Shown here in pieces: positions 2,640 to 60,065 of a stretch of DNA of 64,000 nucleotides. Under the pieces are notes generated by a model. The model worked only from the letters and a program-made list of their open reading frames with translations, had not been told where the DNA came from and made no database searches. Position numbers and translations under genes: made by a program. Origin of the DNA: Natrinema halophilum. Its GTDB lineage: Archaea; Halobacteriota; Halobacteria; Halobacteriales; Natrialbaceae. Location of the stretch: contig NZ_CP058601.1 in the NCBI RefSeq assembly GCF_013402815.2, forward strand, positions 1,798,001 through 1,862,000, written 5' to 3'. Within the stretch, counting starts at the first letter, position 1; each line of letters begins with the position of its first letter.

Positions 2640-3737
2640 AAATCGGAATGTATCATTACACTACCATTGAGGATACGGTTATTACTTCGCTCATTCCAGA
2701 ACCGTTCAAATTCCGCTCTGTTGCGTTAATGATGGGCACCCAGATCCCGAAGTCAGTCGCCGTCATCGACGCCACACCGCCGAACAATGCCTGGGACTCA
2801 CCGCCAAACGGACCGAGGTTAAAGGTCTTAACTCCACAGACATCAATATCTCTTGTCACCTCCTCGGTTTCGGCGTAGTCAAAGACACCAGGCCTCTCTG
2901 ATGGGGGCAGATGACCGGTGGTTGTCAGTTACTGAGAGCTCACCGTTGATGACACAGGTGTCGTCGTGTGATACGTCGGCCGCAATCACCAATGTCGTCA
3001 TTTGTGATGCTGATGTACGGAAATCTACGCGAGCCTCCTGTGTCTTGACGCTAACAGACCCGATAGTGAGTCCTCCCTCGATTTTTGCAAATTGAGCCAT
3101 TCTGAAATGGGACGGGCCTTCACCATCGCTGTTCCATCGTATACCCTCGGTGTTTGAGTCACTAAGCATCTCTATGAGAGTGTTCTAGATGACGCTCGCG
3201 TCGGTCCCGCCCAACTTGATGCCGTAGGAGCGGCCGGCGCTTCCCGACCCCTGTACGTCGATTTATTCCCCACTCACACTAACGGTGTTTCTGTCTCCGA
3301 TATGTATCGCGGCACCATCGTCAGCACCCCTCAAATGTCTTGATGTGGACCGCACGTGAGTCCCACTCACTCGACGTGCCTGCCGTACTTGTCCTTGAGT
3401 CATACGTATGGAGAATGACCGCCCGTGCGCATTGTTCCCCATACTGTTAGACAATATTCCGAACGGTGTGCTTTCAGCGTGGACACCATATCTAGTGCGC
3501 CCCTCAAATACACTCCGGGTATTGGCATGTCCCGGACACCGGACGACTTTGTATTCGTTGGGCCGTCCAAAGACACTAGGTCCGATACGTGACAGTGGCC
3601 GTTGAAGTCGATGCCGATCATCCTGCCTCTTTAATCACGTCAGACGCGGAACTGCCGGAGCCGTTAGCTGCTCCCTGATACGTCAGAAAAATATCAACAG
3701 TATCCTTAACGTCGGTCGCGTCGAAACTATCGGTCAT
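2640..3737 (-). pseudogene. Decayed gene, possibly a secreted or surface beta-helix protein
   Basis: On the minus strand several frames carry protein-like pieces in order: a start-like MTDSFDATDVKDTVDIF at 3737, then VRDMPIPGVYLRGAL at about 3500, GGADDGAAI-type text at about 3320, TIGSVSVKTQEARVDF at about 3060, and CGVKTFNLGPFGGESQALF at about 2820. The PIPGVYLRGA style and the Gly/Val/Asn-rich repeats recall right-handed beta-helix surface proteins common beside haloarchaeal polysaccharide genes, but I cannot prove the family. Stops and frame changes interrupt it throughout. The neighbours are also decayed, so the whole 1-3.8 kb segment seems no longer under selection. Confidence 0.4.
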
Positions 3738-5745: not shown

Positions 5746-6627
5746 ATGATTACCCTACGCGAAATCTACAAGGGCCTCCGGAAACCGCGTCTCAGATTCT
5801 TTGAGCTATACCGAAGGTTTGACAGGTATGTACTCGGAAATAAGCCAGTCTCGATGCCAGATGAGGACTGGGATACGCTGGTAATCCTCGACGCCTGCCG
5901 GTACGACCTGATGGCGGAGCTCGACCCGTTTGACGCGCCCGTCGAACAAAAGACGTCGCCGTCGACGTACACGCTGGGATACCTCCGGGAGACGTTCGGC
6001 GACGCCGACTTCCCCGAGATCGTATTCGTGACCGCAAACCCGAACTTCGAGTCGATACCGGCCCGCTTCCACGAACGCGTGACGCTCTGGGACGACGAGT
6101 GGGACGAAAACGTGGGCGTCACACCTCCCGAGGCCGTCACCGAGGCGGCGATCGAGACGTATCAGGAGTACCCCCACAAGCGGCTGATCGTTCACTATAT
6201 GCAGCCACACTATCCATTCATCGGAGACCTCGGCCGACAGCTCGCAGAAGAGGGAACGATTCATTACGAGTACGCGCACGGCGATGACTTCTGGAGACAA
6301 CTCGAACAGGACGATGTCGACGAGGCCTGCATCTGGGACGCTTACAAGGAGAACCTGGAACTGGTGATTCCCCACGTCGAGGACCTCCTCGAAGCAGTGC
6401 CCGGTCGAACTGTCGTTACCTCGGATCACGGGAACGAGTTCGGACGATTCGGCATCTATGGCCATCCTGATGGTGCTCATTCGCCGGGGCTCGTACGCAT
6501 TCCCTGGGTCGTCCTCGACGATCAAGAGCGGCGGTCGACCACGTCAGGAACCGCGACCGCTGGTCCCATAGGTGAGGACGACGTCGTCGCCCAACGGCTG
6601 GCAGATCTCGGGTACGCAGACACGTGA
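5746..6627 (+). CDS. Alkaline-phosphatase/sulfatase-superfamily protein
   Basis: 293 residues. A metal-site start WDTLVILDACRYDL (about residues 42-55) and a second metal-site motif TSDHGNEFG (about 225-233) are those of the alkaline phosphatase/sulfatase fold. A candidate nucleophile lies in the Ser/Thr cluster after residue 65 (SPSTYT). The classic sulfatase CxPxR signature is absent, so hydrolysis or transfer of phosphate, phosphoglycerol or sulfate are all possible. It ends in the family-like QRLADLGY tail. It starts 106 bases after the divergent ABC exporter start and precedes a glycosyltransferase on the same strand, so a glycan-tailoring role is likely but inferred. Confidence 0.8.
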   Translation: MITLREIYKGLRKPRLRFFELYRRFDRYVLGNKPVSMPDEDWDTLVILDACRYDLMAELDPFDAPVEQKTSPSTYTLGYLRETFGDADFPEIVFVTANPNFESIPARFHERVTLWDDEWDENVGVTPPEAVTEAAIETYQEYPHKRLIVHYMQPHYPFIGDLGRQLAEEGTIHYEYAHGDDFWRQLEQDDVDEACIWDAYKENLELVIPHVEDLLEAVPGRTVVTSDHGNEFGRFGIYGHPDGAHSPGLVRIPWVVLDDQERRSTTSGTATAGPIGEDDVVAQRLADLGYADT

Positions 6628-6820
6628 ATGTGTGCCCGACGTGTCGACCGAGCGTCGAATTCGAAAGGCGACACTACACGTGGGATGGTTGCACCGGTCA
6701 GAACACCCTGGTCTAGAACGCAGTCGATTCGGGTTGAATGGTCGCCGTTCGCCGCATTACGCCAGGAACTAGGAGAAAGCAAAGATGATATATACGCGTC
6801 TTTTCAATCACAGTAAACTG

Positions 6821-7924
6821 ATGAGGATTTTCTATGATGGGGTTATATTCACTCGCCAACAGTTCGGTGGCATCAATCGAATCTACGAACGGCTAGCCAC
6901 AGAGTTGCCAACGGTCGCACCCGATTCGGTGCTCCGGACGTTCCGGTTCCCGTCGACGCTTGACTCCCATCCGTTCCTCACGCAATCCCGATATCTCATC
7001 CCGAAGTTGGGAGGCGTTCTTCGGGAACTCGACGAGCGCATATTCCTGCCCCGGGCGGTCAACAAGTTCGACCCCGATATCTACCACACGTCGTACTTCC
7101 GTCTCCCAGCGGACATCAACGCACCATCGGTCGTGACCGTCTATGATATGATCCACGAACGGTTCGCCGACGAGTTGGGGAACGCCGAAGCGACGTCGGC
7201 GATGAAGCAAGCGAGCGTGGAGCGTGCCGATCACGTAATCGCAATCTCGAAGTGCACGAAGGATGATCTCGTGAAGTACTTCGATATAGCTCCAGAGAAG
7301 GTGAGCGTCATCCATCTGGCGGCCGATCCGGTGTTCGAACCGGTTGACGACTCCACAGTCTCTCGATTGCGAGCGGAGTATGACCTCCCGGAGCAGTTCC
7401 TCCTCTACGTCGGTCGGCGAGGCGGCTACAAGAACTTCGATACTCTCCTAGAGGCGTACGCCGACTGGGAGTACGCCGAAGACGTGTCTCTTGTCTGCGT
7501 AGGTGGCGGTGAGAAGTGGAGCAACGCAGAAGCTGAGACGATACGACAGGCGAACCTAGAGGAGTCGACGCAATTGATCACCTGGGTCGACGACAACGAG
7601 CTGCGGTCGTTCTACACAGCAGCGACAGCGTTCGTCTATCCCTCACGGTACGAGGGGTTCGGTATTCCGCCTCTCGAGGCGATGCAGTGCGAGACGCCGG
7701 TCGTCGCGTCGAACGTCTCTGCCATCCCGGAAGTCGTTGGGGAGGCTGGTACGTACGTCGACCCGGATGACCCCGCAGACATCAGGCGGGCGTTGTCCGA
7801 GGTCATCTTAGACCCTGAGTATCGTGAACTACTTGTAGAGCGAGGACTTCGTCAAGCGAAAGCCTTCGACTGGCAGCAGACAACGCGACAGACCTACCAG
7901 GTATACGAAAACATTCATGACTAA
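6821..7924 (+). CDS. GT4-family glycosyltransferase
   Basis: About 367 residues from the ATG at 6821 (MRIFYDG). An upstream ATG at 6785 adds 12 poorly conserved residues. The protein has the two-domain GT-B layout: FGGINRIYERL near the N-terminus, a nucleotide-binding half starting with FLLYVGRRGGYKNFD, and the C-terminal EGFGIPPLEAMQCETPVV, which holds the E-x7-E motif of retaining GT4 enzymes. It would transfer a sugar from a nucleotide sugar to a growing lipid-linked glycan on the cytoplasmic side. Its last 8 bases overlap the next gene (ATGACTAA), indicating translational coupling. Donor and acceptor are unknown. Confidence 0.9.
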   Translation: MRIFYDGVIFTRQQFGGINRIYERLATELPTVAPDSVLRTFRFPSTLDSHPFLTQSRYLIPKLGGVLRELDERIFLPRAVNKFDPDIYHTSYFRLPADINAPSVVTVYDMIHERFADELGNAEATSAMKQASVERADHVIAISKCTKDDLVKYFDIAPEKVSVIHLAADPVFEPVDDSTVSRLRAEYDLPEQFLLYVGRRGGYKNFDTLLEAYADWEYAEDVSLVCVGGGEKWSNAEAETIRQANLEESTQLITWVDDNELRSFYTAATAFVYPSRYEGFGIPPLEAMQCETPVVASNVSAIPEVVGEAGTYVDPDDPADIRRALSEVILDPEYRELLVERGLRQAKAFDWQQTTRQTYQVYENIHD

Positions 7925-8885
7925 TACCACACTGATAACGGGCGTTACAGGCTTCGTCGGAAGCCATTTACTCGACAGATTGGCCGATTCCGACCGAGAC
8001 CTGTACGGCGTCGTCCGAGAGAGCAGTTCGTTGGAGTACTGCCGAGATCACCGTGCAGACATCGACCTCCGAACGTGTAATCTCGTCGACGGGCCTGCAG
8101 TGTTCGAACTCTTGGAAGACGTTGCGCCGGACCACATATACCACCTCGCTGGACAGAGTTCAGTGAAGTCTAGCTGGGACAGCACGTACTCCCTAATCAA
8201 CAACAACATCGTCGCGACGTTGAACATATTGGAGGGCGTTCGCCAGGCAGAGTCTATCGATCCCCGAGTGCTCCTCGCTTGCTCGTCGGAACAGTACGGC
8301 CTAGTGGATGCGGACGCGCTCCCGGTGACCGAATCGATGGCCCTGAACCCGGTGAGTCCGTACGCGGTCAGCAAGTCTGCGGTCGACATGTTCGGCTTTC
8401 AATACTACAAGAGCCACGGGGTCAAGACGATCCGGACGCGAGCATTCAATCACACCGGGCCGCGTCGCCCAGACAAGTACGCACTCAGTGATTTCGCGAA
8501 GCAGATTGTGGAAATCGAGAACGAGATGAGCGATTCGAACCACATCCACGTGGGGAACCTCAGTGCCGTCCGGGATTACACCGACGTTCGGGACGTCGTC
8601 AAAGCATACGAGTTAGCGATGTGCGAATGCTCTTCGGGGGAGGCGTACAACATCTGCTCAATGACTGGGTATACAATCCGTGAACTGCTCGACAGATTAA
8701 TCGAACTGAGCGGGGAGGACATCACTGTCGTTCAGGAGGACGAGAGAATACGCCCAGTAGACGTCCCGGAACTCGTCGGGGACTGCGCGAAGTTTGAGGC
8801 GAAGACAGGATGGGGTCCTGAGTACACGATCAAGGAGACGCTTGGCGATCTCCTCCAGTATTGGAGGAGAGAAATGGACGTGTAA
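7917..8885 (+). CDS. SDR-family nucleotide-sugar enzyme (GDP-mannose dehydratase / GDP-6-deoxyhexose reductase type)
   Basis: 322 residues. The NAD(P)-binding TGVTGFVGSHL sits at the N-terminus (about 9-19). The catalytic set is visible as the serine in CSSEQYG and YAVSK with the active Tyr and Lys. RAFNHTGPRR is the sugar-nucleotide region. GDP-mannose 4,6-dehydratases usually have FNHESPRRG here, whereas GDP-4-keto-6-deoxymannose reductases have FNHxGPGQ, so this sequence is intermediate. It probably makes a 6-deoxyhexose donor such as GDP-rhamnose for the glycan built by its neighbours. It is coupled to the upstream GT4 gene. The SDR family is certain, the exact reaction is not. Confidence 0.85.
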   Translation: MTNTTLITGVTGFVGSHLLDRLADSDRDLYGVVRESSSLEYCRDHRADIDLRTCNLVDGPAVFELLEDVAPDHIYHLAGQSSVKSSWDSTYSLINNNIVATLNILEGVRQAESIDPRVLLACSSEQYGLVDADALPVTESMALNPVSPYAVSKSAVDMFGFQYYKSHGVKTIRTRAFNHTGPRRPDKYALSDFAKQIVEIENEMSDSNHIHVGNLSAVRDYTDVRDVVKAYELAMCECSSGEAYNICSMTGYTIRELLDRLIELSGEDITVVQEDERIRPVDVPELVGDCAKFEAKTGWGPEYTIKETLGDLLQYWRREMDV

Positions 8886-9000
8886 CGGCGTCGAGCAGAA
8901 CCGTTCTCTGCAACCGTCCGAATGGCGCTGACACACTCGCTGACGAAGCCTCAACCCTATCGAATCCAAAGAAGTGAGAAGAACCAACTCCTTCCAGAGC

Positions 9001-9008
9001 TTTTAATA
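9001..9008 (+). promoter_or_regulatory. TATA box for the gene at 9037
   Basis: TTTTAATA lies about 30 bases ahead of the ATG at 9037. No Shine-Dalgarno sequence is present, which fits a leaderless haloarchaeal transcript starting at or next to the ATG. Confidence 0.5.
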
Positions 9009-9036
9009 AAATGGTCGAAAGAGAATTGGTGACTTA

Positions 9037-10254
9037 ATGAATTTTCGGTCTATCGATGAAAAGGGATCGCAGGGGATCTTCGGCGCGCTCAACGAGGTGG
9101 ACAACGTCTGCGTCTTCATGGCGGATGCCCTCCGATGGGACCACCTCCCGGAATCAATCGCCGAACGGGGGCTAACGGTGAAGACAATCGCCGCGTCACT
9201 TACGACGCACACGAGTGTGCCGACGATGCTCACCGGACTTTGGCCGCGGCACCATGGGGTCTTGTCCCGGCAGCATCAGATACCAGACGTCCCAAACCTT
9301 CTAGATATCCCTGACCTCGACGATGGATATTATATGCCAGGCGACGAATCTGTTGTCGACGACGGCACGTTTTCAGTGCTCAAGATCGAGGAACGGCGCG
9401 AACTCGGAAGGCTTGACTCCCCGTGGACGTACTTCGAACGGCATCATGGCGGACACGTTCCGTTCGAGGCCGCAGGATGGGAAGGCTCCTGGGATGAGTT
9501 CGTTGAAGAGTTCGCCGGGAACATCGAGAAACACAGACACTGGTACGAGAAAGCGGTGTCGGGGACTGTCGAGGACTTCGAGGATAGGCTGGCGACGATT
9601 CGCGAGCGTGGGGAGGAATCGAACACGCTCATCGTATTCACTAGCGACCACGGGGAGTACCTCGGTGAGGCGGGGCTCGTCGACCATAGTTCGCCGATGC
9701 GACCGGAGGGCGTGTACGTGCCAACGGTATTCATCCACCCCGATATCCCTGCAGGGACGAAGGCAGACCACGTGATGCGCCACGTCGACCTGTTCCCGAC
9801 GATACTGGACAGCCTCGATCAACCGACTCCCGAGCACCTCGACGGAGAGAGCTTGTCCCGGAGCTCGCCATCCCGCGGCTATTCGCTCTCAACCTCGAAC
9901 GTATACTTCGGTGGGAAGCCACGGCACGTGTACGAAAGCGCCGGCATCTGGGATGCAGACGGCGGGTGGGTTCGCAACCAGACGGCACTCCACCACCGGG
10001 CACTGATGGCGTTGGGCTTGCTCGCCGGCCGTCGATGGAAGTCGAAGAACATACGTCGATCACTGGAGAAGTATCCACAGGCCGTCGGCCATTACGTGCG
10101 GTCCAGAGAGCAGTTCGGCGATCCTAGATTCTCGTTCGAAGAGGCAGTCGCGGACATTGAGGCGATCGAGTCCGTCTCACCAGTTTCAGACAAAGATCTG
10201 ACTGATTTGAGCGAGGATACCGAGGAACGACTACAGGATCTGGGATACCTGTAG
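9037..10254 (+). CDS. Sulfatase-family protein
   Basis: 405 residues. The N-terminal metal-site segment VCVFMADALRWDHL (about 26-39) and the nucleophile region HTSVPTMLTGL (about 59-69) have a Ser-x-Pro-Thr core in place of the CxPSR of classical sulfatases. The downstream metal motif FTSDHGEYLGEAG is at about 200-212 and the C-terminal tail is ERLQDLGYL. The Ser form is common in archaeal members and would need a different nucleophile maturation from formylglycine. Most likely it adds or removes a sulfate or phosphate on cell-surface glycan. It has its own leaderless promoter and is followed 36 bases later by a GT2 gene. Confidence 0.85.
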   Translation: MNFRSIDEKGSQGIFGALNEVDNVCVFMADALRWDHLPESIAERGLTVKTIAASLTTHTSVPTMLTGLWPRHHGVLSRQHQIPDVPNLLDIPDLDDGYYMPGDESVVDDGTFSVLKIEERRELGRLDSPWTYFERHHGGHVPFEAAGWEGSWDEFVEEFAGNIEKHRHWYEKAVSGTVEDFEDRLATIRERGEESNTLIVFTSDHGEYLGEAGLVDHSSPMRPEGVYVPTVFIHPDIPAGTKADHVMRHVDLFPTILDSLDQPTPEHLDGESLSRSSPSRGYSLSTSNVYFGGKPRHVYESAGIWDADGGWVRNQTALHHRALMALGLLAGRRWKSKNIRRSLEKYPQAVGHYVRSREQFGDPRFSFEEAVADIEAIESVSPVSDKDLTDLSEDTEERLQDLGYL

Positions 10255-10290
10255 CATGGCGCGACAAACTCTCAGATTCGACTTGATCCA

Positions 10291-11145
10291 ATGACGTCCG
10301 TTTCAATCGTCACACCGTCGTACAATCAAGCACAGTTCATCAGAGAGACGCTTGAGTCGGTCCGCCAGCAAACCTACAGCAACCTGACGCACATCGTCGT
10401 TGATGGGAAGTCGGACGACGGGACCGTCGACATTCTGAGCGAGTATGACAATATCGAGTGGAGTTCTGAGCCGGACCGTGGGCAGACACACGCTATCAAC
10501 AAAGGGTTCGAGCGGGCGGACGGGGACATCGTTGGCTGGCTGAATTCTGACGACCTCTACACGTACAGGAGTACGGTCGAAGAGGTCGTGGACGTGTTCG
10601 ACCGGAGCAATGCCGATATCGTCTTCGGGCACGCGATAACTATCGGCCCAGATAGCGAGCTGCTGCGGTCACACTACATTCCACCATTTGATCGGAACAA
10701 GCTAAAGCGCCACTGTTATATCGTACAACCGTCCGTCTTCTTCCGCGATCATGTGGTTGCGGAAAACTGTCTAAACGAGGACCGCGAGTACTCGATGGAT
10801 TACGAGTTCTGGCTCGATCTGGCCGACCAGTACGAGTGGTATCGGTACGACGCTATCGTAGCCGCAGACCGGAATCATAAGGGCCGGAAGATAATCCGGG
10901 ACGCGGAAGCATCGTACGCAGATACAGTACAACTCCGCAAGGAACGAGGAATAGGCGATAATCGGGCATTCGCCGTCCGACAGACACTGGACAAATTAGA
11001 CTTACGGTGGCGACGCGTCCGGATACTCCCCAGACTTCTAGAGCTATACCGAGAGCCAATCGAGCGGTTCGCGTTCGACATCATCCGACCGCCGCTATCG
11101 TCGGTGATCCGAACGCAACTGTGGCAGCGAAAGAAGCAACTCTGA
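10291..11145 (+). CDS. GT2-family glycosyltransferase
   Basis: 284 residues, GT-A fold. It begins VSIVTPSYNQAQFI, followed by HIVVDGKSDDGT, the first acidic nucleotide-sugar pocket, and GWLNSDDLY with the DxD-like metal motif at about residue 88. The acceptor-side YSMDYEFWLDLADQY is typical of WcaA-like polysaccharide glycosyltransferases. It has no transmembrane segment, so it works at the inner face of the membrane on a lipid-linked acceptor. It follows the sulfatase-family gene by 36 bases on the same strand. Donor and linkage cannot be read from the sequence. Confidence 0.88.
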   Translation: MTSVSIVTPSYNQAQFIRETLESVRQQTYSNLTHIVVDGKSDDGTVDILSEYDNIEWSSEPDRGQTHAINKGFERADGDIVGWLNSDDLYTYRSTVEEVVDVFDRSNADIVFGHAITIGPDSELLRSHYIPPFDRNKLKRHCYIVQPSVFFRDHVVAENCLNEDREYSMDYEFWLDLADQYEWYRYDAIVAADRNHKGRKIIRDAEASYADTVQLRKERGIGDNRAFAVRQTLDKLDLRWRRVRILPRLLELYREPIERFAFDIIRPPLSSVIRTQLWQRKKQL

Positions 11146-11330
11146 AAATCGTCCTTGATACTACCTCTCGACGTGTATGTGCCGTCTTCTGACTGGGGAA
11201 TTAACTGGGCGCTACAAGGTCAGGTGTGCAATAGTTGAGTGATGCGCTAGCTGTCGAGGAGAGACACCGGCAGGACTATAACCGATAGTCAACCTCGAAT
11301 CAGTACAAGCCCGTCAAATCCACAAGAGAG

Positions 11331-12701
11331 ATGGTTACGTTCTATCCTGCCGCAATATTCATCGTTCCGCTCGTCGTTTGTGCACTCTACAATCGGAGAT
11401 GGATCCATTGGGCATTCGTATTGACTGTCCCCTTCTTCGCAGTTGTTGTCTTCGAATTCGCGGGACATCGTTTCACACTTCCAGAAGTCGCTGTCATCCT
11501 CCTCGGAGTCAATCATCTCGGTCATGTTACGAGGCATAACATGGACATCGTTCTGGAAAAAAGATCCCTGGTTTTCGCGACGTCGTTCCTCTTCATCGGT
11601 GTCGTCTCCTCGGCAGTACTGCTCGTATTTCCGAGTGAGCAAATGACGCATCCCTACAATGCAGGAGCCTGGATTGTCTTCGAAACGGAACCACTCCTGT
11701 ACTCTCGGGACAACTTCACACAGACGGTACTCCGTATCTTCTCGTTCGGGAGCATGTTCGTCATCGCGACCGCGTTCACCAAAGAGTTGATCGCTAAGTC
11801 CATCCGGTTGCTCGTTCTCGAGGGCGTGTTCGTTGGTGCCTTCGGAGTGGCGTACCAACTTTCGATCCTTTTTGGGTTCCCACTCATTGAGGCTTCACAG
11901 TGGTTTGGGTTAGTCAGCATAAAATACATTCGTCCGTTCCTCGGCCCACTCCCACAGATGATGTCGGTTCCCGGAGAACCAGGATACACAGCCATTTATT
12001 TCCTATTTCTGCTCAGCCTGATTATTCCGGTTGCGATATCCGGTCAGGAAAGAATCCTCTCCAATCGCGAGTCAGTGTTTTTCGGGTCGTTGTTCGTTTG
12101 TTTCCTTATTTTAACCGGAGCGGGAACAGGGTTCGGAGGCCTTGTCATTCTCAGTATCGTCTTGTTTACATATTATACATTCGTCAAGGACACCCTGCCG
12201 TCGTTTGGGCGATTTGTGCGGTTTGGTTTTCAAACTTCGATACCGGCACTGGTGGTTGCGCTCGTGGTGATGGAGGATCCTATTGGGACGGCGAGCGTAG
12301 TGATTCAAGAGTTGACGTTCCGAGGTGGGTCAGGGCCCATCCGCGCACACTCAATGGCATTCGCACTAGACCTGTTCCAGACTAGACCCCTCATTGGATA
12401 CGGGTTCGGTTCGTACTACGGTGCGTCAGTCGTGGGGACAATTCTTGTCTCAACCGGCGTCATCGGCGTTACTCTGTTCGTAGCGTTTCACTTATTCATT
12501 GTCCGCGATTTGATTCAACTTGAGCAGACGATCGACATACCTCCGTTGGAGTCCAGTCTAGCCCGGACACTCGCAATCTCGCTTACGGCCCTTTTCGCGA
12601 CGATGCTCGTCGCAAAATCTATCACTGCGATATTTTTCCCTTGGTACTGGATGGCTGTCGGCTTCGGAATCGCGCTTCTCACCGAAACATATAAAAGGTG
12701 A
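11331..12701 (+). CDS. O-antigen ligase/polymerase-like membrane protein
   Basis: 456 residues and almost wholly hydrophobic, with about ten predicted membrane segments. A long loop in the middle (about residues 190-225) contains IRPFLGPLPQMMSVPGEPGY. A later segment is RAHSMAFALDLFQTRPLIGYGFGSY, resembling the conserved R..xW..a....P..G.G.G region of the Wzy/O-antigen ligase (PF04932) superfamily. Such proteins polymerise or ligate lipid-linked oligosaccharides on the outer face. The start ATG follows a GAGAG sequence. It lies inside the glycosyltransferase cluster, which supports a polymerase or ligase role. Function is by family and position only. Confidence 0.75.
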   Translation: MVTFYPAAIFIVPLVVCALYNRRWIHWAFVLTVPFFAVVVFEFAGHRFTLPEVAVILLGVNHLGHVTRHNMDIVLEKRSLVFATSFLFIGVVSSAVLLVFPSEQMTHPYNAGAWIVFETEPLLYSRDNFTQTVLRIFSFGSMFVIATAFTKELIAKSIRLLVLEGVFVGAFGVAYQLSILFGFPLIEASQWFGLVSIKYIRPFLGPLPQMMSVPGEPGYTAIYFLFLLSLIIPVAISGQERILSNRESVFFGSLFVCFLILTGAGTGFGGLVILSIVLFTYYTFVKDTLPSFGRFVRFGFQTSIPALVVALVVMEDPIGTASVVIQELTFRGGSGPIRAHSMAFALDLFQTRPLIGYGFGSYYGASVVGTILVSTGVIGVTLFVAFHLFIVRDLIQLEQTIDIPPLESSLARTLAISLTALFATMLVAKSITAIFFPWYWMAVGFGIALLTETYKR

Positions 12702-48063: not shown

Positions 48064-48137
48064 GCCGGTGTAGCTCAGACTGGCAGAGCGAATCCTTCGT
48101 AAGGATTAGGTCGAGGGTTCAAATCCCTCCACCGGCT
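48064..48137 (+). tRNA. tRNA-Thr (anticodon CGT)
   Basis: 74 bases. Acceptor arms GCCGGTG (48064-48070) and CACCGGC (48130-48136) pair fully, with T as discriminator. The D arm is around TAGCTCAG. The anticodon arm AATCC-TTCGTAA-GGATT gives anticodon CGT. The T arm GAGGG-TTCAAAT-CCCTC is standard. It is followed by a region with mobile-element features, and tRNA 3' ends are common integration sites, but I found no second copy of its 3' end in the window. Confidence 0.92.
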
Positions 48138-48210: not shown

Positions 48211-48762
48211 CTACTCTTGCTGGAATAACTCCTCAATTCGGTTTTGAAGATGTGCAAATGCCTGCTCAGCTTCCCCCATCGTCTCTATCCCCGTAATAGA
48301 CACGGCCCCATTTGAAGGAATAGTAATCAAACAATCCAGTTCTTCCGGCCAATAGAACAAGAACGGGGACTGTTCTGGTTCATACTCAACATTTTCTAAC
48401 CCCAATCCAACCGAGAGCGCTGAAAGATCAACTTCTCGTCTTATATCTGCCCTGCAAATCAGATTCTGAACTTCAGGGCGTTTACCCGTGTCAATGATAT
48501 CAACTCCAAGATCACCAACGGCTTCGGAAAGTGCAATATATATGTTCTCAAGTTCTTCCTCTGACTTCGCGCCCATAATGCTATACGAACCAGAGGAATA
48601 GAGAATTAAGACAGCACTCCCTTCCTCAAACCGTAGCTGCAGACCCGGAAAACGCTCAGGTTCGTAGACTCTTTCATGTGCGTCCAGATCGCTTTGTAGC
48701 GCCACCAAATCTAACTCACGACCAACATGGCCAGAGGCAACGATATTGACGATTTCGACCAT
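48211..48762 (-). CDS. Divergent TATA-box-binding protein paralogue
   Basis: 183 residues, the size of archaeal TBP, made of two imperfect repeats. Repeat 1 (about 1-88) keeps VNIVASGHVGRELDLVAL, VYEPERFPGLQLRF and IMGAKSEEELENI, close to the TBP consensus. Repeat 2 (about 95-183) starts VQNLICRADIRREVDLSAL and has GLGLENVEYEPEQSPFLFYW, where the DNA-inserting FPGL becomes SPFL. One of the two phenylalanine wedges that kink TATA DNA is therefore altered. It probably alters promoter choice of a gene subset. Its start is 87 bases from the divergent restriction-modification gene. Confidence 0.85.
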   Translation of the reverse strand: MVEIVNIVASGHVGRELDLVALQSDLDAHERVYEPERFPGLQLRFEEGSAVLILYSSGSYSIMGAKSEEELENIYIALSEAVGDLGVDIIDTGKRPEVQNLICRADIRREVDLSALSVGLGLENVEYEPEQSPFLFYWPEELDCLITIPSNGAVSITGIETMGEAEQAFAHLQNRIEELFQQE

Positions 48763-48849
48763 TGTCTTTGATGTATAATTGGAGGAGGTATATGATCCGT
48801 GATTGTGCTAACAGGGAGGTTTAATACCTGTCGCTAAATGACATAGTTC

Positions 48850-51800
48850 ATGCCAGATCTGGGGACGACTTTCAATTCAATATATGCCAGAATCCAGCAA
48901 CGTCGGGACTTGGAGGAGAGTGAGGTCACCGACGTGTTCACCGACAATGATTTCTTCCAGACGCTGGGGTACAAAGGTATCCCAATCGACGTTCGTTCCG
49001 AGAACCACATCGTTGGTGGAGATCGTCCAGACTACTTCGCGAAGGATGATATCGGAAACGTCGTATTCGTCGTTGAGTTCAAGAAACCAACGCGAGATGA
49101 CGACCTCGGGAGCCACCGGAGGCAGCTGTGGGAGCAGTACGTAGTCCCGCTCAGGGCCGATTACGGTGTGCTGACCGACGGAGAAGAGCTGATCTTCTAC
49201 GAACGGGTCGGGCGAGACAACTATGATCGCCGGTTCCGCGTTAGCCTGAATGAAATCTCAGACGAACAGCTCGCCGAACTGGAACAGCTCCACAAGCCCA
49301 GCTATTCGTTCAGTTCAACTGAAGAGATCGAGGACTACTTCGCCACTACAGAGACTGTCTCAGTCGGGACCAGAGTCGACGGGGAGCCAGTTGGGCAGAA
49401 TGAGTTCATGGATACGTTCCGGCTGGAGCGTGGAACACTGTTCTATCAAATGCTGGAGCACACGTACAGTCTGCTTGAGTACTATCTTGATCAACCGCGC
49501 GACAACAACTTCCCGCGTGATGCCTACGAATTCTGGAGGGAGTACTACGCTCCGGACCCAAGTTGGTACGACCTTCCGGAAGAGTGGCGGGACATCGCTG
49601 GCAGCGCTGCAAATAAACAGAGGGTGATGTTCGCGGTCGAGACCGTTCAGTCGCTACTGGGACGACTGATGTTGGCCAAGGCCTGTGAGGATCAGAACTT
49701 CCCCGGGGTCAACATATCCAGATTCGTACAGACCGAGACACCCGAATTCCGCGGCGAAGTCTCGCCGGTGTCATACATCCACGCCGGACGCGGCCTGATG
49801 GAGCAGATGCGTGAAGAACTTGTCGAGTCTGTGTTCGAGCAGGACATCTACTACTGGTGGACACAGAGTGCTGAGGAAATTGACGAACTTTCCGGACGAG
49901 AGATTAACGAGGAGAGTTGGCCGACTCCGTTGGAGGAATACGGAGAGCAATTCGTCGAATTCCTACTCGCTATTGGCCGGTTCGACTTTTCAGACATCAG
50001 TGGTGACCCACTCGGTCAGCTCTACCAGCAGTACTTCGACCGTCGGACTCGACAGGCGCTGGGCGAGTTCTACACGCCACCAAGCGTGTGTGAGTACGTC
50101 GTCGATTCGGTGGGATACGGCGACGGCGTTCAGTACAGCCGGCTCGTCGATCCCGCCTGTGGTTCTGGAACCTTCCTGGTCTCGGCGCTGGACCGTTACA
50201 AGAACGAACTCGGCACGGAGATGGATCGACCAGCAGCCCTGCACGACCTCTGTAACAGTGCGCGGGTGGTCGGGCTCGACATCCACCCCTTCGCGGTCGT
50301 AATGGCACAGATCCGCTTCATGCTTGAGATTCTCGACGAGTACAAGCGCGCCATCGAGGAGGACCCCGGACTGGTGTTGCGGCGACTTCCCGTGTTCCGG
50401 ACTGACTCCCTGATTGACGAGTCAGAGACTGAAGAGGGCCGTCAGCAGTCGTTAGGAGCCAGCTTCGGTGAGGATACCATCGAGTTTGATATGCCGCTAC
50501 CCATCCGGCGAGGGGAGGAATTCGAGACGATGACCTTCGAGTTCCCACGGTTCAGCGAGGTCCAGTCGTCGACGGCTGGCCAAATAAGTAATCGACAAGA
50601 GTATTTCTCTGTCCTGCTGGCAGTCTTCGACGCGGTCAAGGACCAAGTTAAAGAGGAGGACTACGACATCAGCGAGGATGATCTGGTCGCATATCTCTAC
50701 AATTACTTCTCGTCGGACACTAATGTCGAACAGGTCGCCAGCACGTTCGTCGACACGGCGGAGACGTTCCTCGACATGGTACGGGAACTCCGCGAGGACT
50801 ACAACGACGGACGTCTCCTCAAACTGGTCGAGGACCTCGTTCTGAGTGCCGTCCTCAAGAATAGCATCGACTTCGACTACGTCGTCGGCAACCCGCCGTG
50901 GGTGGCAAAGCAGAACACCCACTCGCCGCCAAGGCAAGAGCGCAGATTGAAGCAACAGTATCTCTCGGCGTGGAAGGAAACCGATCCCTATCTTCAGTTC
51001 ACCGAACGAGGGCTCGGGATGCTACGTGAGGGCGGTTCTCTCGGCTTAGTGGTCTCAAATCGGTTCCTCAGCAACCAGGGTGGCAAGGAGATTCGTGCAC
51101 TACTCGCGAAGAACCAGATCACGGAACTTGTCGACTTCACTGACTACCCAGTGTTTAGCGGCGCGACGAACTACTCGGCAATTCTTACAGTGGAGAAACA
51201 AGTCCCAAACGACGACTGGACATCGTTCGTTGGAAACGGTCGCTTTAAGAACGGACACACGATCGAGGCCGCACGAGTCCGGGACTGGGACGGCGAAATC
51301 CCGGAGTTGGTCGATCAACTGTACGCCCGGGAGCCAACCGAGTCGGTCGACTTCTACGAAATCGACTCACAGCGATTTCAGGGACGAATCCCCCTCCGCA
51401 ACGGGGCGGTGATGACCGAGGAGGTGGAGGAAACGTTCGAGGAATATCAGAACGTCACGGTAACGCGGAACCTTCCTCTGGCGGACATCTGGCCAAACTC
51501 GCCGCCGGAGGAGTACGAACTCGTAGAACGCGTCGAGTCGGAGATGGAAATGCGGCTCGGCGATCGCTCCGTCGTCAGAGACAATGAGCACGAAAATGCA
51601 CCGAATCTGGTAGGAGATGATATCCGCGTCGGGATACAGACCAGCGGTGACGACGCATACATCGTCCACCCAGAAGTTGGTATAGACAAGGAGAACCTCC
51701 ATGAGCTTGACCGAATCACCGTAACCCCTCGCGGAGTTGACAAATCGTACACCGTCGAGACAGACCTACTGAAAATAGATATCACCGGTAAAGATACTGC

Positions 51801-52975
51801 TCGGGTGGCTCCCCGACTGGAGCAACCGACTGGTATTTGTTCCGTACGTACAAGGTGACGAGCGAGCCAAACTCGTTCCCCCAAACCAGTTCGCAGACGA
51901 GTACCCGCGAACATGGGAGTACTTCACGGATGCATCGGTGCTGAAAACACTCTCCGATGAGTCGACGGAGCGTAAGGAAATCCACGCACGACTAGCAGCT
52001 GAGTTCGACATCATAGACAACCGAGATACGGCGACCGGGTACCAGAATACTGAATTGTCCGATGGCGACTATCGAAACCTGTCCGATGTTCTCCGCACGC
52101 AACCTGACGAAGTCTACCAATTAGACGACGACCTGTGGTGGTACCGGTACATGCGACGGCAGAACGTGGAGGTACTACCTGAACCAAAGGTCCTAACTGG
52201 TGATCTCGTCCAATATAACAAGCTGAGCTTCGACGACGCTGGAATCATGGCACCTCACAACGTCAGCGTGTACGCCATCATTCTCCCCAGAGTCGATCGT
52301 CACTCTGTGGCTGCTGTATTAAATTCTGCGTTAGTCGAGTTCTTCCACAAGCAACATTCCCGTATTCACCAGGGGAAGGCTTACAGATACATCGAAGACC
52401 ACACGTCGCAATGGCCACTCATTCGGCCCTCTGGAGAGGAGCGGGACCGCCTCGAAACGCTGGTTGAGGAGATCATACACCTCAAAGACCTCCAAATCAA
52501 GGTCCCGCAGTTCCCAGACCCGTATATCGCTGAAGCACGAGAGAGTGGTAGTGAATTCGTGAATATCTCTTACACTCCTTCGTCCTCTTATCAGGCAGAT
52601 CCGTCAATACAGCCTGACCTGTCTGGTGATCCTATCATCGAACTCTCTGACGGGCAGATCGACGACTCGATCATTGCTAACGATACCGTTGCGGAATACG
52701 TCCGTGAGGCGCTTGAGGGCCGAGAGCTTGAAGCCAACACTCAGGTCTCTATTCTCGTACCGCTAGACATAGATGTTACCGAGGACGCGCTTGATGAATT
52801 CGAAGCTGATTGCGAGGAACTCGAATCAATGGACATCAATGAGATCGAGGCTGAGATAGACAACATCGTCTTCGACCTATACGGAATCGACTCCGAGCGT
52901 CACCGTGAGATGATGCGGCGTTATAACAACCAGTATAAGTCTGTACAACGGATCGACCCAGAAACGGGCGAGTAG
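48850..52975 (+). CDS. Single-chain (type IIG-like) restriction-modification enzyme, frameshifted
   Basis: Two consecutive frames form one protein of about 1374 residues once a single G is removed from GGG at 51803-51805. The order of domains is: PD-(D/E)xK nuclease (P60-D61, E76 and K78 in VEFKKP), a helical region, adenine-specific methyltransferase with motif I DPACGSGTF (D434) and motif IV NPPW (681-684), then a target-recognition-like C-terminal part. As read, the first frame stops at 51856-51858, 17 codons after the shift. The second resumes as WLPDWSNRLVFVPYVQGDER. With the break the enzyme would lack its C-terminal third. It may be a dead gene, a switchable one, or a sequencing error. 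Confidence 0.8.
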
Positions 52976-55990: not shown

Positions 55991-58900
55991 ATGGGGATAT
56001 CGGATGTCTCGATTCACCCGGCCATAGGCATCGCCCGCGTGGGCAACAGCGACCAGTTCTTTATCGGGCCCGAGAAGCCCTGGGAGACGCTCGAGCCCAC
56101 CGGCGGGTTCAAGGACGACACCTGTCGGGTGAAGCGCCAAGGCGCACGCTTTCGCCTCTTTGCCTCCTACGACGATGATCGCGATCCCACGGAGTTGTCG
56201 ACCGATGACGTCGAATCCATCGAGTGGAACGTCACGCTCGCCAACAAGAAGGCAACGACCTACCCCGATAGGCGGAATAACCTCAGCGAGTGGGACCGAA
56301 TCAGCGAGGATGAAGCCTCAATCAAACCGGGGACCGTGACGGTCACCGGCGGCAACGACAGGGCAGTCGTCTCGGAGGACCGGATCGTTTTGCCACGGAA
56401 GAAAGATCCCGACGAACTCGGCTCGTTCCCCGGGATGGCGGACGTCTCACTCGGAGAAATTCGGACCGACAGCCACGGCCGGCTGATCGTCCTCGGGGGG
56501 AAGGGAGAGTCGGATACGCCACACGATCTCTCGAAGGAAACCTTCGCAGACAGCGACTTCCACAACACAGGCTGGTACGACGACACGGCCGACGGAGCGG
56601 TGACAGCGACGGTAAAGACGAATGAACAGACATTCGAGGAGATCCCTGCGTGGGTCATTGTCGGGCCCCCGAAATTTGCACCGGGGATCGACAATATGGT
56701 CACGCTGTACGAGCGCCTCTACGACGTAATGGTCGAGGCCGGCTACGAGAACCCGCCATCGAAACCGTCGTACACGGAACACATTGCGCCCGTCCTGCAG
56801 CGGGCAAAAGAGGTCGAATGGATCGCTTCCCCGTCGCATGCGACCCACACTGGGGACATGGAGGGAATCTCGGCCGCCTGGGACCACCCCGTCGGGAAGA
56901 CCCACGACGTGATCCGGAACCGCGTGTTCGAGAAGTTGCGCAAGCCATTCGCGTTCAACGCTCATCATTCCGGTGACCCGGCAATGCGTATCTCGCCGGG
57001 GACCCGAGTCGTGTTCGACTGGGTGTCCTACAGTCACGATGTCACCGTCGAAGACCAGCCCTCCGGAGCGTCCTGGACCGGCCATCCGACGACCGAGAAC
57101 AGAGGCTTCTCCGTTTCACACACGTTCACCACCGAAGGGGTGTACACGTTCTACTGTGCAAACCACGTCAGTCCGTGGGGCATGAAAGGGGCTATCGTAG
57201 TCGGGTCCGACACTGCGGCGGACTTCGGCGACTGGTTCACCGACGCGCCACGGGGAGGTGCGACACCCACCTTCGACGGTTCGACAGCTGATCGCACCGG
57301 TCGATCAAAGGTTACCGTCGAGGTCGGTACGTACGTCGGGGACATGCCACGAATCGCGGGCGACGACGCCCACCTCCCAGAGACGTATCTCGAACTGTTC
57401 CAACAGTGGAAAGATAACGACTACATCGACGACTGGAGCTCGGACTGGGACGACGGTCCCGATCCGCCAGCGACAGTGACCCACGCGGGACTGGACAGGG
57501 CCGCACTCGAAAACGCGATGGGGGGTGCATTCTTCCCGGGGATCGAGACCGGCGGACTCATCGAGTACCTGCCAATCGACCAGTTGCCAATTCTGGATCC
57601 GACCAACTACCAGGGGCCGTTTAGGCTCGATCACGACGCCGTCGATCCCGGGGATCTGACCAAGTACATGGCGGTCCCGTGGCAGACGGACTTCTTCGCC
57701 TGTGGCTTCGGGACCTGGTGGCCGGCGTCGCGACCGATGGAGGTCCACCCACAGGGGCGGAACACGGAGAAAGACTGGGCTCGCGACCTCATCCAGTCTC
57801 AGCGGGGCAACGATACGGCCAACATGGTCGAGGACTGGCACAAACTCGGCTTCGTCGTCGAGCAGGGCGAGGAGTACGTCGAGGTCGATCGGTGTCTGAA
57901 ACAGGTGCCCTCGATCACGCTACTGACGACGAGTATCGACTTCGGGGACGTCCCCCACGGTCCGATGGGATCGCGGACGACGAAACGGGCTATCGTGTTC
58001 GAGGTGAATGCGCCGACCGCTGATGTCGAACTAGAAATCACGAAGCAACCGACCGAACAGGCAAACATCCGTACTCCAAAAACACGCGGGTCAGTCACGC
58101 AAACGGCGACCAACGAGATCAAGACGATTCGATTCCCCGTCGAATACGACACGGACATCGGTGATACGGATATCCAGGCGACGATCGAGATTTCGGCCAC
58201 GAACAGCAGCGGCAAGTGGACGATCGACGTCACGGCGTCGACGATCGACTGGGAGACGACGGCGGTCTCGCTCGTCCTCGATCGGTCGGGGAGCATGAGT
58301 GAGTCAAGCGGCGACACCCGAACAAAACACGACACGTTGCAGGCCGCAGCAAAGACGTTCGTCAGATCAATGCTCGACGGATACGGCGTGTCGCTGGTCG
58401 GGTACAACCACGAGGCGAGCGCTCTGCAAGACGTCCGGGAGATCGGAACCGACGTCTCCGGTGGGACGTCCGTCAGGGACGCCACGATCGACGAGATAGA
58501 ATCCGGACTGACCCCCTCGGGCGCGACATCTATCGGAGACGGCATCAAGATCGGCCGGAAAACGCTCAATCAGGTCGGCCAGTACGCCCATGAGTCCATG
58601 GTGGTGCTTACGGACGGAAAAGAAAACACCGCCCCGTACATCGCCGACGAGGCCGGAACCGTCGACGAACGGACGTTCTCCGTGGGCCTCGGAAAGCCCG
58701 AAAACACGAGTGCGCCGGCCCTCGAGACGCTCTCGGGCAACACTGGCGGCTATCTACTCGTCACGGGCGAAGTCGACACCGAGGATCAGTTCCGACTGGA
58801 GAAGTACTTCCTCCAGATCCTCTCGGGGTTAACGACCGCCGAGGTCGCCCTCGATCCCGAGGGGACGCTCCAGGAGGGGGAACAACACCGAATCCCGTTT

Positions 58901-60065
58901 CAGGTGACTGACGCCGACACTGGCCTCGACATCATCCTGTTGACACCGTACCCGCAGGTCGTCGACTTCCGACTGGAGACGCCCATCGGCAACGTCATCG
59001 AGCCGTGGCGTGCCCACGCGGACCCGGCCATGAAGTGGGTCCTCGGCGACCGGGTCACCTACTACCGCCTGTCGCTACCTGCCGAGGTGGATCAGGATCG
59101 TCTCGAGAGCGACGGCCAGTGGCACGTCATCATGAGCATCGGCCGTCCGGAGACCAAACCCGACCGCGACGAACTCGACGAACTCGAGCGGATCGTCGGC
59201 CGGCGCGACGATGAGACGCGAGGTGCGCCGGTTCTGGCCGACGAGCGCCAGGAGTACGAGCACCGACTCGAGGACGTCCTGTCCGTAGCGACCGGGGTGG
59301 GGGAGGGCGTTCCGGGAGGGAGAGGAGGGGGGAGACGAGTCAACAAACGGTCTGCTCACCCAGACAGCGATCCCAGACGTACAGGAGGCCGGGTTGGACT
59401 ACTCCCTGCTCGTTCACAGTTACTCAAAGCTCTCGATGAACGCTTCGCTGGACCGAACAGGGTACGAACCGGGTGCAAAACTCCACGTCATTTCGTCAGT
59501 CACTGAGAGCGGAACACGCGTTGACAGCGTCGATGTTTGGGCCGACGTGACCCGTCCAGACGGGACGAGCGATCGCGTTCACCTCGAACCGGCGGACGAC
59601 CGGTATCGCGGGACGGTCCACACCTCGTCGCCCGGGACCTACCATATGCGTGTCCAAGCGCGCGGTCACACTTCGAAGGGAATCCCGTTCCAACGGGAAC
59701 AACGCGTAACCGGCGCCGTCTGGCACGGCGGCGACCACGACGCGGAGACGAGTGCCAGCGGCGGCGGGCCGGCCGCCCGCGAACGCGCCCGCCGTCGTCG
59801 CCTCTGTGAGACCCTCCACTGTCTGCTCAGCGAAGACGGGGCACTGACCGAGGAGTTCGTCGACCGCCTGGAAGCGGCGGGGATCGACGTCGATGCCATC
59901 CGTTCTTGCGTCGGCGCGTACTGTCACGACCTGAACCCCGAACGGATCGAAGAGGGCGGCGCTGCTCCCGACCATCCGCCGGAACAGTGGCACGAGCGCG
60001 ATGTCTTGGAGGATGTCGAAGACCAACTCCGGCGCGTCCTCGACGACCTTGGCATCGACCGCTGA
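55991..60065 (+). CDS. LodA/GoxA-type CTQ quinoprotein with inserted cupredoxin and fused VWA domain
   Basis: The N-terminal SIHPAIGIARVGNSDQFFIG, KRQGARFRLF and WNVTLANKKA are LodA-family. The CTQ region is VPWQTDFFACGFGTWWPASR: D567 and C571 keep the spacing of LodA Asp512 and Cys516. W616 in VEDWHKLGFVV is my candidate for the crosslinked Trp. Between the halves (about 318-405) lies a halocyanin-like domain with type-1 copper ligands H349, C389, H392 and M398. A VWA domain follows (MIDAS DRSGS at 764-768, T846, D875; about 757-945), then beta-sandwich-like domains. One extra G in G6 at 59327-59332 breaks the frame; removing it joins the last 245 residues, giving 1357 in all. As written, the first frame runs to 59506. 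No signal peptide is seen. Confidence 0.88.

Follow-up and report, generated by a model that had tools for sequence, protein, structure and literature searches.

A divergent group of haloarchaeal TATA-binding proteins (TBPs) is encoded next to, and often within, restriction-modification (RM), BREX or DISARM-like modules on chromosomes, on plasmids and in the genomes of haloviruses. One of its members lies in a 64,000-nucleotide stretch of the Natrinema halophilum genome (hereafter the window; contig NZ_CP058601.1, positions 1,798,001 to 1,862,000, assembly GCF_013402815.2), where a TBP gene is divergently transcribed from a type IIG RM gene beside a tRNA-Thr gene. The linkage suggests that the extra TBPs of haloarchaea are part of virus-defence modules, which they probably regulate.

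TBP genes beside restriction-modification modules

We built a search profile from 11 RM-linked TBPs and ran it on 391 haloarchaeal genomes, in 77 of which a total of 95 TBPs outscored canonical TBPs. The 87 regions examined around these TBPs hold 91 TBPs, and 3 of the 95 were not covered. In a strict test, which demanded methyltransferase motifs I and IV within one open reading frame (ORF), the motif pair was present in 63 of the 87 regions (53 of 76 when the training loci were left out), as against none of 20 control regions around canonical TBPs picked from the best-listed PF00352 matches (Fisher 7e-10). Given its absence from the controls, pairing by chance was rejected. Family searches, similarity and annotation placed other RM, BREX or defence genes in 20 of the 24 motif-negative regions (BrxHII-like helicases, HsdM, HsdR, PglX, PglZ, type IIG, HmaB, mad8 and NotI-like genes), and four regions, L210, L226, L229 and L240 in our numbering of loci, received no RM or defence assignment. 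Because the controls were not given these additional searches, the motif count alone is the fair comparison. Near its TBP, L240 encodes a 1988-amino-acid protein without a Pfam match (6596-12562), and L226 a UvrD-type helicase with a PD-(D/E)XK nuclease domain (9623-12328).

Of the 91 TBPs, 39 are immediately adjacent to a methyltransferase-motif ORF and 65 have one at most four genes away. On the same strand, 40 of the 91 follow within 20 bases a gene of at least 400 amino acids (29 with a spacing of -8, -4, -1 or 0), and 18 are divergently transcribed from a gene of that size, at most 400 bases away. The partners comprise type I (HsdM-HsdS-HsdR), type IIG and BREX/PglX systems as well as DrmMI-like methyltransferases with BrxHII-like SNF2 helicases, and start-stop overlaps join TBP genes to RM, HsdR or SNF2/BrxHII genes. 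No single protein is common to all partners; all of them are DNA modification or restriction modules. Although the helicases of L182 and L183 share 89-90% identity with the L135 helicase, their TBPs share only 50% with the TBP of L135, as against 81-85% with TBPs that neighbour type I genes; helicase and TBP identities do correlate over 20 such loci (Spearman 0.49). By these identities, the same TBP type swaps between RM module types. In a phylum sample of 294 genomes, whose number of genomes from other classes is not shown, 9 matched at E<=1e-55, and these 9 belong to the same order.

The best plasmid matches of the window TBP follow genes for an Eco57I/TaqI-type methyltransferase and a helicase on pHLAC01, on Halolamina and Halorientalis plasmids and on pNRC100; the match in Halobacterium sp. 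DL1 has a methyltransferase gene and a type I R gene close by. In Halorubrum lacusprofundi, where the TBP gene is HLAC_RS16010, the type strain resists halovirus HRTV-DL1, and a strain that has lost pHLAC01 is sensitive to it (PMC10544981). The TBP at 111987-112532 of the NRC-1 plasmid pNRC100 is the last gene of a methyltransferase-helicase-TBP operon.

Viral contigs gave no matches when searched with the window TBP and the window RM protein, and the RM-linked TBP profile identified 11 viral loci. Halovirus HRTV-9 carries an annotated type IIG RM enzyme, matching that of the window at 36% and those of L048 and L050 at 58-61%, and 16 bases after it a TBP gene whose product matches the L048 TBP at 78%. 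In HJTV-2 (L298, 4965-8242), a TBP is accompanied by an N4-cytosine methyltransferase and an Eco29kI-type endonuclease, and the cassette sits between a ribonucleotide reductase gene and tRNA-Thr/integrase genes. These two cassettes indicate that RM genes and TBP travel together. In both viruses the RM and TBP genes occupy the same region, beside the viral tRNA-Thr and integrase genes. At a further viral locus, L286, the profile match lies 16 bases behind a 1296-amino-acid methyltransferase-motif ORF, and no open frame of at least 150 amino acids was recovered for its TBP. Loci L288-L296 were not counted as examples, as they hold no methyltransferase-motif ORF and the TBPs of L288-L294 are, by eye, four-Phe-like.

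The window pair and its relatives

The elements of the window locus are as follows.

48064-48137, forward strand: tRNA-Thr (CGT), insertion spot
48211-48762, reverse strand: RM-linked TBP paralogue of 183 amino acids (PF00352, PDB matches, AlphaFold model, wedge residues)
48358-48369, reverse strand: SPFL replacing FPGL, the lost wedge (alignment)
48373-48387, reverse strand: EYEPE motif of the C-repeat stirrup, with its first E and its P kept by all 105 RM-linked TBPs
48763-48849, no strand: 87-base gap between the two divergent starts (sequence)
48850-51858, forward strand: type IIG RM gene, first ORF, with nuclease-like N-terminus and N6 methyltransferase (Pfam, motifs, relatives)
49024-49083, forward strand: PD-(D/E)XK-type motif RPDY...EFK of the RM protein, with D61, E76 and K78 invariant in 21 of 21
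51770-51785, forward strand: approximate place of the RM frameshift (three-frame translation)
51779-52975, forward strand: RM continuation in another frame, with a TaqI-like specificity domain (TaqI_C, PF12950, E=6e-5, under the family cut-off); ORF listed from 51938

A preliminary description of the window had proposed a TBP paralogue whose second repeat has lost the FPGL wedge, 87 bases from a divergent RM gene and next to a tRNA gene, and each of these points was borne out. PF00352 matches the protein across two repeats (E=3e-35), and its best PDB match is the TBP of M. jannaschii (E=8e-25). The AlphaFold model (pLDDT 90) matches TBP chain 1ais_A at TM 0.85, and all 44 of its structure matches at E<=0.001 are TBP chains or complexes holding a TBP. 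By Pfam and predicted structure, therefore, it has the two TBP repeats and the saddle fold. The first repeat keeps F38 and has a tyrosine (Y55) at the other wedge position; in the second repeat (EYEPEQ-SPFL...ITIPSNG), the alignment places S132 and P149 at the two wedge positions, so that neither of the two wedge Phe pairs is complete. The EYEPE stirrup and the central Asn residues are kept. The only other TBP in the same genome is the canonical one, and the tRNA-Thr gene ends 73 bases from the TBP stop.

The RM protein matches Eco57I (PF07669, E=8e-24) and N6_Mtase (PF02384, E=9e-18) and carries the motifs RPDY..EFK, DPACGSGTF and NPPW; the Pfam match of its N-terminus is weak (E=0.19). It resembles type IIG RM enzymes of the Eco57I/TaqI-like kind in its nuclease-like motif, N6 methyltransferase and candidate TaqI-like specificity domain, and differs from them in being coupled to a TBP and in its broken frame. 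By three-frame translation, the reading frame breaks near 51.77-51.79 kilobases (kb), which splits the gene into two ORFs, so that the window holds no single intact RM frame; the homologue in L033 is one ORF of 1373 amino acids. The frameshift may reflect a pseudogene, an assembly or sequencing error, or a programmed shift. With the frame shifting near 51.78 kb, the gene may thus be inactive or the assembly wrong, and because the frame is broken the pair is possibly no longer active in the window.

A search with the RM protein, covering the 391 genomes of the class, gave matches in 77: six are close (54-66%), a broad group stands at about 40%, and the rest are weaker. We read 21 loci of this family, the window among them, with flanks of about 8 kb. 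The preliminary description had proposed that TBP genes be sought beside the same RM family in other genomes, and a TBP is the direct neighbour in 5 of the 21 loci; together with the survey above, linkage thus recurs in haloarchaea and haloviruses. The two genes diverge in the window and, 91 bases apart, in L033, and in L037, L048 and L050 the TBP lies directly behind the RM gene, with gaps of 7, 16 and 6 bases. No neighbour besides the TBP recurs similarly across the 21 loci. A scan of named genomes (80 loci kept) found TBP matches in 7 loci, including Halobellus captivus and Halorubrum saccharovorum, which are L037 and L050; the others are in Natronolimnohabitans, Natrarchaeobius, Natrinema altunense, Natrialba swarupiae and one member of the Sulfolobales. 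The Sulfolobales locus, L085, was rejected as a further example, since its TBP is of the four-Phe type and lies 4.4 kb away.

Next, wedge residues were counted in 105 RM-linked TBPs, which include the second, lower-scoring TBPs of dual loci as well as loci taken from other searches (L050 and L133-L137); duplicates (L082, L090 and L092), ORFs shorter than 150 amino acids and ORFs with stops had been dropped. Given as the number of Phe in the N- and C-terminal repeats, the patterns were (0,2) in 89 proteins, (1,2) in 8, (2,0) in 3, (1,0) in 2, (0,1) in 2 and (2,1) in 1. None of the 105 keeps all four wedge Phe and none loses all four; 11 of 11 canonical TBPs have all four. The lost N-repeat Phe residues are mostly replaced by Tyr (69 and 89 of the 105 at the two positions). 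The EYEPE stirrup is kept almost throughout (E in 105, Y in 103, E in 101, P in 105 and E in 102), as are the central Asn residues (97 and 99). We take the stirrup to be the TFB/TFIIB contact surface and the central Asn residues to be DNA contacts, as in TBP structures. Over 73 close pairs of TBPs, the ratio of nonsynonymous to synonymous substitution (dN/dS) had a median of 0.12 and a largest value of 0.26, and the close pairs are under purifying selection; since dS is saturated within the clade of the window TBP, these values do not extend to the window protein itself.

The predominant pattern, with the N-terminal Phe pair lost and the C-terminal pair kept (89 of 105), is that of the TbpC-like TBPs. 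In the portion consulted of Becker et al. (2014, PLoS Genet, PMC4230888), many of these are described as having lost the N-terminal pair, and whether they are nonfunctional or specialised is left open; the word 'restriction' is absent from that portion, a check that did not cover all synonyms. Among the four full-length TBPs found on pNRC100, only the one at 111987-112532 lacks the N-terminal pair and keeps the C-terminal pair. Because it is the only full-length pNRC100 copy that fits the description of TbpC, we take it to be TbpC, by its Phe pattern and not by locus tag. The window TBP is likewise a divergent paralogue without one Phe pair, but its pattern is nearly the reverse: it has lost the C-terminal pair and falls in a separate clade with the TBPs of L033 and L232 and the first TBPs (TBP1) of L185 and L190 (SH-aLRT 99), on a tree whose RM-type labels were set by hand, with 20 rows labelled 'other'.

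L185 and L190 share the operon order methyltransferase-TBP1-helicase-TBP2; in TBP1 the N-repeat Phe pair is intact and the C pair lost, and TBP2 shows the reverse. The TBP genes flanking the SNF2-type helicase lie at 7980-8528 and 11491-12048 in L185 and at 2821-3369 and 6310-6858 in L190. TBPs paired in this way, each intact in the half that the other has lost, may work jointly at a single site. The other four dual operons are not complementary: in L176, L178 and L216 both TBPs retain the C pair, and TBP1 of L174 has lost one C-repeat Phe.

A proposed module-specific regulator and its alternatives

We propose, with moderate confidence, that TBPs of the window type are module-specific, controller-like transcription factors that would tune their own RM operons. 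Because the stirrup and the central Asn residues are kept, contact with TFB and a TATA-like half-site should still be possible for such a TBP. Since one half of its saddle is crippled, it would bend or hold DNA otherwise than the housekeeping TBP does. It would be made together with the RM enzyme and most likely tune that enzyme's operon, in the simplest form by competing with the canonical TBP and so exerting negative feedback, by analogy with the bacterial controller (C) proteins. It would be an accessory regulator and not an enzyme subunit, since TBPs are absent from most RM relatives and are swapped between different enzymes. More broadly, half-crippled TBPs may well serve haloarchaea and their viruses as a plug-in control part for any type of RM module.

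C proteins are likewise encoded by small DNA-binding genes beside RM genes of various types, but they are helix-turn-helix dimers; the window protein has a predicted TBP saddle in place of that fold and would act via TFB. TOTE and TALON, conflict systems reportedly described by Aravind et al. in 2022, resemble the present loci in that a TBP is encoded within a defence operon. Their partners are TPR and OB/cold-shock proteins, whereas RM, BREX or BrxHII/DrmMI genes accompany the RM-linked TBPs; TALON is largely confined to Chloroflexota. No TPR or OB/cold-shock protein was present among the five window proteins scanned, and neighbours elsewhere had no systematic scan. Both systems are named as defence operons containing a TBP in the part consulted of PMC12458937. 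In relation to BREX and class 1 DISARM, other TBP partners match BrxHII, PglX and DrmMI models, but many TBP loci show only a methyltransferase and a helicase with the TBP. The part consulted of an archaeal RM survey (PMC10609329) does not mention TATA or TBP, and we found no earlier report of an RM-TBP link in open-licence papers. The linkage is real and wide, and apparently unreported in the open-licence literature.

Several observations weigh against control by a dedicated TBP. Of the 21 RM-family loci, 16 have no TBP, so that this RM enzyme seemingly does not need one, and control by a TBP is dispensable for the family. For BREX, type I and IIG systems, there is no obvious need of a C-protein. 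In Halobacterium hubeiense, match H11 has a TFB gene nearby and no visible RM gene, a counter-example to the linkage. The deletion of tbpC is reportedly the work of Coker and DasSarma in 2007. As far as the consulted part of PMC2121645 goes, the NRC-1 deletion strain is viable with no apparent phenotype, and no array was done on it. The promoters add further points of this kind. Genes with and without a TBP share promoter-like elements in two RM sub-families, and for this reason no dedicated promoter is visible. In the 40% group, the TBP-linked L048 and L050 and several TBP-free members have, by eye, a CTTTTT-type box and a CTGTCTCGGG-like element in common; these stand just before the RM start in L039, L042, L044, L046, L048, L050 and L052, and an operator or a self-methylation site is possible. 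L036, without a TBP, and L037, with one, share ACCGAAAC(C/T)TTATCA (by eye). An atypical element before the RM start was seen in one sub-family of 4 loci only: a conserved sequence around CGTCGTTACTATTTTGATGGTTGG, about 30-50 bases before the start of a TBP-linked 981-amino-acid methyltransferase in L234, L245, L246 and L247, which lies in largely dissimilar upstream DNA, L245 and L246 being near-identical.

The 87-base gap itself holds, by eye, TATA-like GTTTAATACC before the RM start and CATATACC before the TBP start. The preliminary description had placed a dedicated promoter switch there. The dedication of a TBP to the RM gene stands, and the linkage is wide, but the location of a switch in the gap is not specifically supported: most pairs run in one direction, divergence occurring in 18 of 91 cases against 40 of 91 on the same strand behind a large gene, and the promoters of TBP-linked and TBP-free relatives look similar. 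For the same reasons, we rejected the divergent layout as the essence of the arrangement. The further suggestion that the nuclease is held off until methylation is established is not simply applicable to a type IIG protein, in which nuclease and methyltransferase activities are held together.

The main rival to a module-specific regulator, although an unlikely one, is a transcription brake: a half-crippled TBP would act as a dominant negative, sequestering TFB or TATA boxes and slowing viral and host transcription during restriction, when the RM module is highly expressed. The loss of wedge Phe in one half in nearly all of the 105 proteins, with an almost invariant TFB surface, speaks for such a brake; translational coupling to a methyltransferase that is always needed, however, would make the brake constitutive.

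Somewhat more doubtful is a physical cofactor, in which the TBP would bend DNA as a subunit of the RM complex or the helicase complex, or would partner an SNF2-type ATPase as in Mot1-TBP. This would fit the start-stop overlaps with RM, HsdR or SNF2/BrxHII genes, and the two TBPs with complementary intact halves that flank the helicase in L185 and L190. However, the partner proteins are unrelated, the TBPs swap between systems, divergent layouts exist and most RM relatives have no TBP. Given the swaps, the flexible layout (same-strand in 40 and divergent in 18 of the 91) and the kept TFB and DNA surfaces, we favour a regulator acting through DNA and TFB over a fixed subunit.

We regard as improbable that the extra TBP is a decoy or guard that mimics a host TBP under viral attack, its loss or binding triggering the RM module: TBP-RM cassettes are indeed found where viruses and hosts are in conflict, and in viruses as well, but the viruses carry the same TBP-RM pair. 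Least probable, and already disfavoured, is hitch-hiking, by which spare TBPs would gather without a role in mobile, RM-rich islands and decay; the window RM gene is frameshifted and a loss of function was considered for TbpC-like TBPs (Becker et al. 2014, PMC4230888, as consulted in part), but the dN/dS of about 0.12, on which a decayed copy was rejected, the gene overlaps, the specific Phe-to-Tyr changes and the almost invariant stirrup all speak against it.

If the module-specific regulator is correct, a basal transcription factor has been recruited into immunity, and the much-debated expansion of haloarchaeal TBPs, TbpC included, would in good part serve defence and not supply environmental 'sigma-like' factors. 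It would provide a testable role for the extra TBPs, above all TbpC, and count a basal transcription factor among the components of archaeal restriction systems. New archaeal defence loci could then be sought beside TBPs with a broken wedge.

The tRNA-Thr insertion spot and neighbouring DNA

The window tRNA-Thr is an insertion spot: in each of the 9 relatives examined from the genus, this tRNA is followed by other DNA. The G+C content of the stretch is 0.51-0.57, and that of its surroundings about 0.6. No second copy of the tRNA-Thr 3' end, which would form an att repeat, was found within the window. In L283 (genome G193), the last 22 bases of a tRNA-Thr are repeated about 100 bases downstream, as after the integration of an element.

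Elsewhere in the window, at 55991-59506, an ORF of 1171 amino acids shows, by eye, a cupredoxin-like stretch (YTFYCANHVSPWGMKG) and a DRSGSMSE stretch; its parts are presumably a LodA/GoxA-like start, a cupredoxin-like part and a von Willebrand A-like part, the last of these holding DRSGSMSE.

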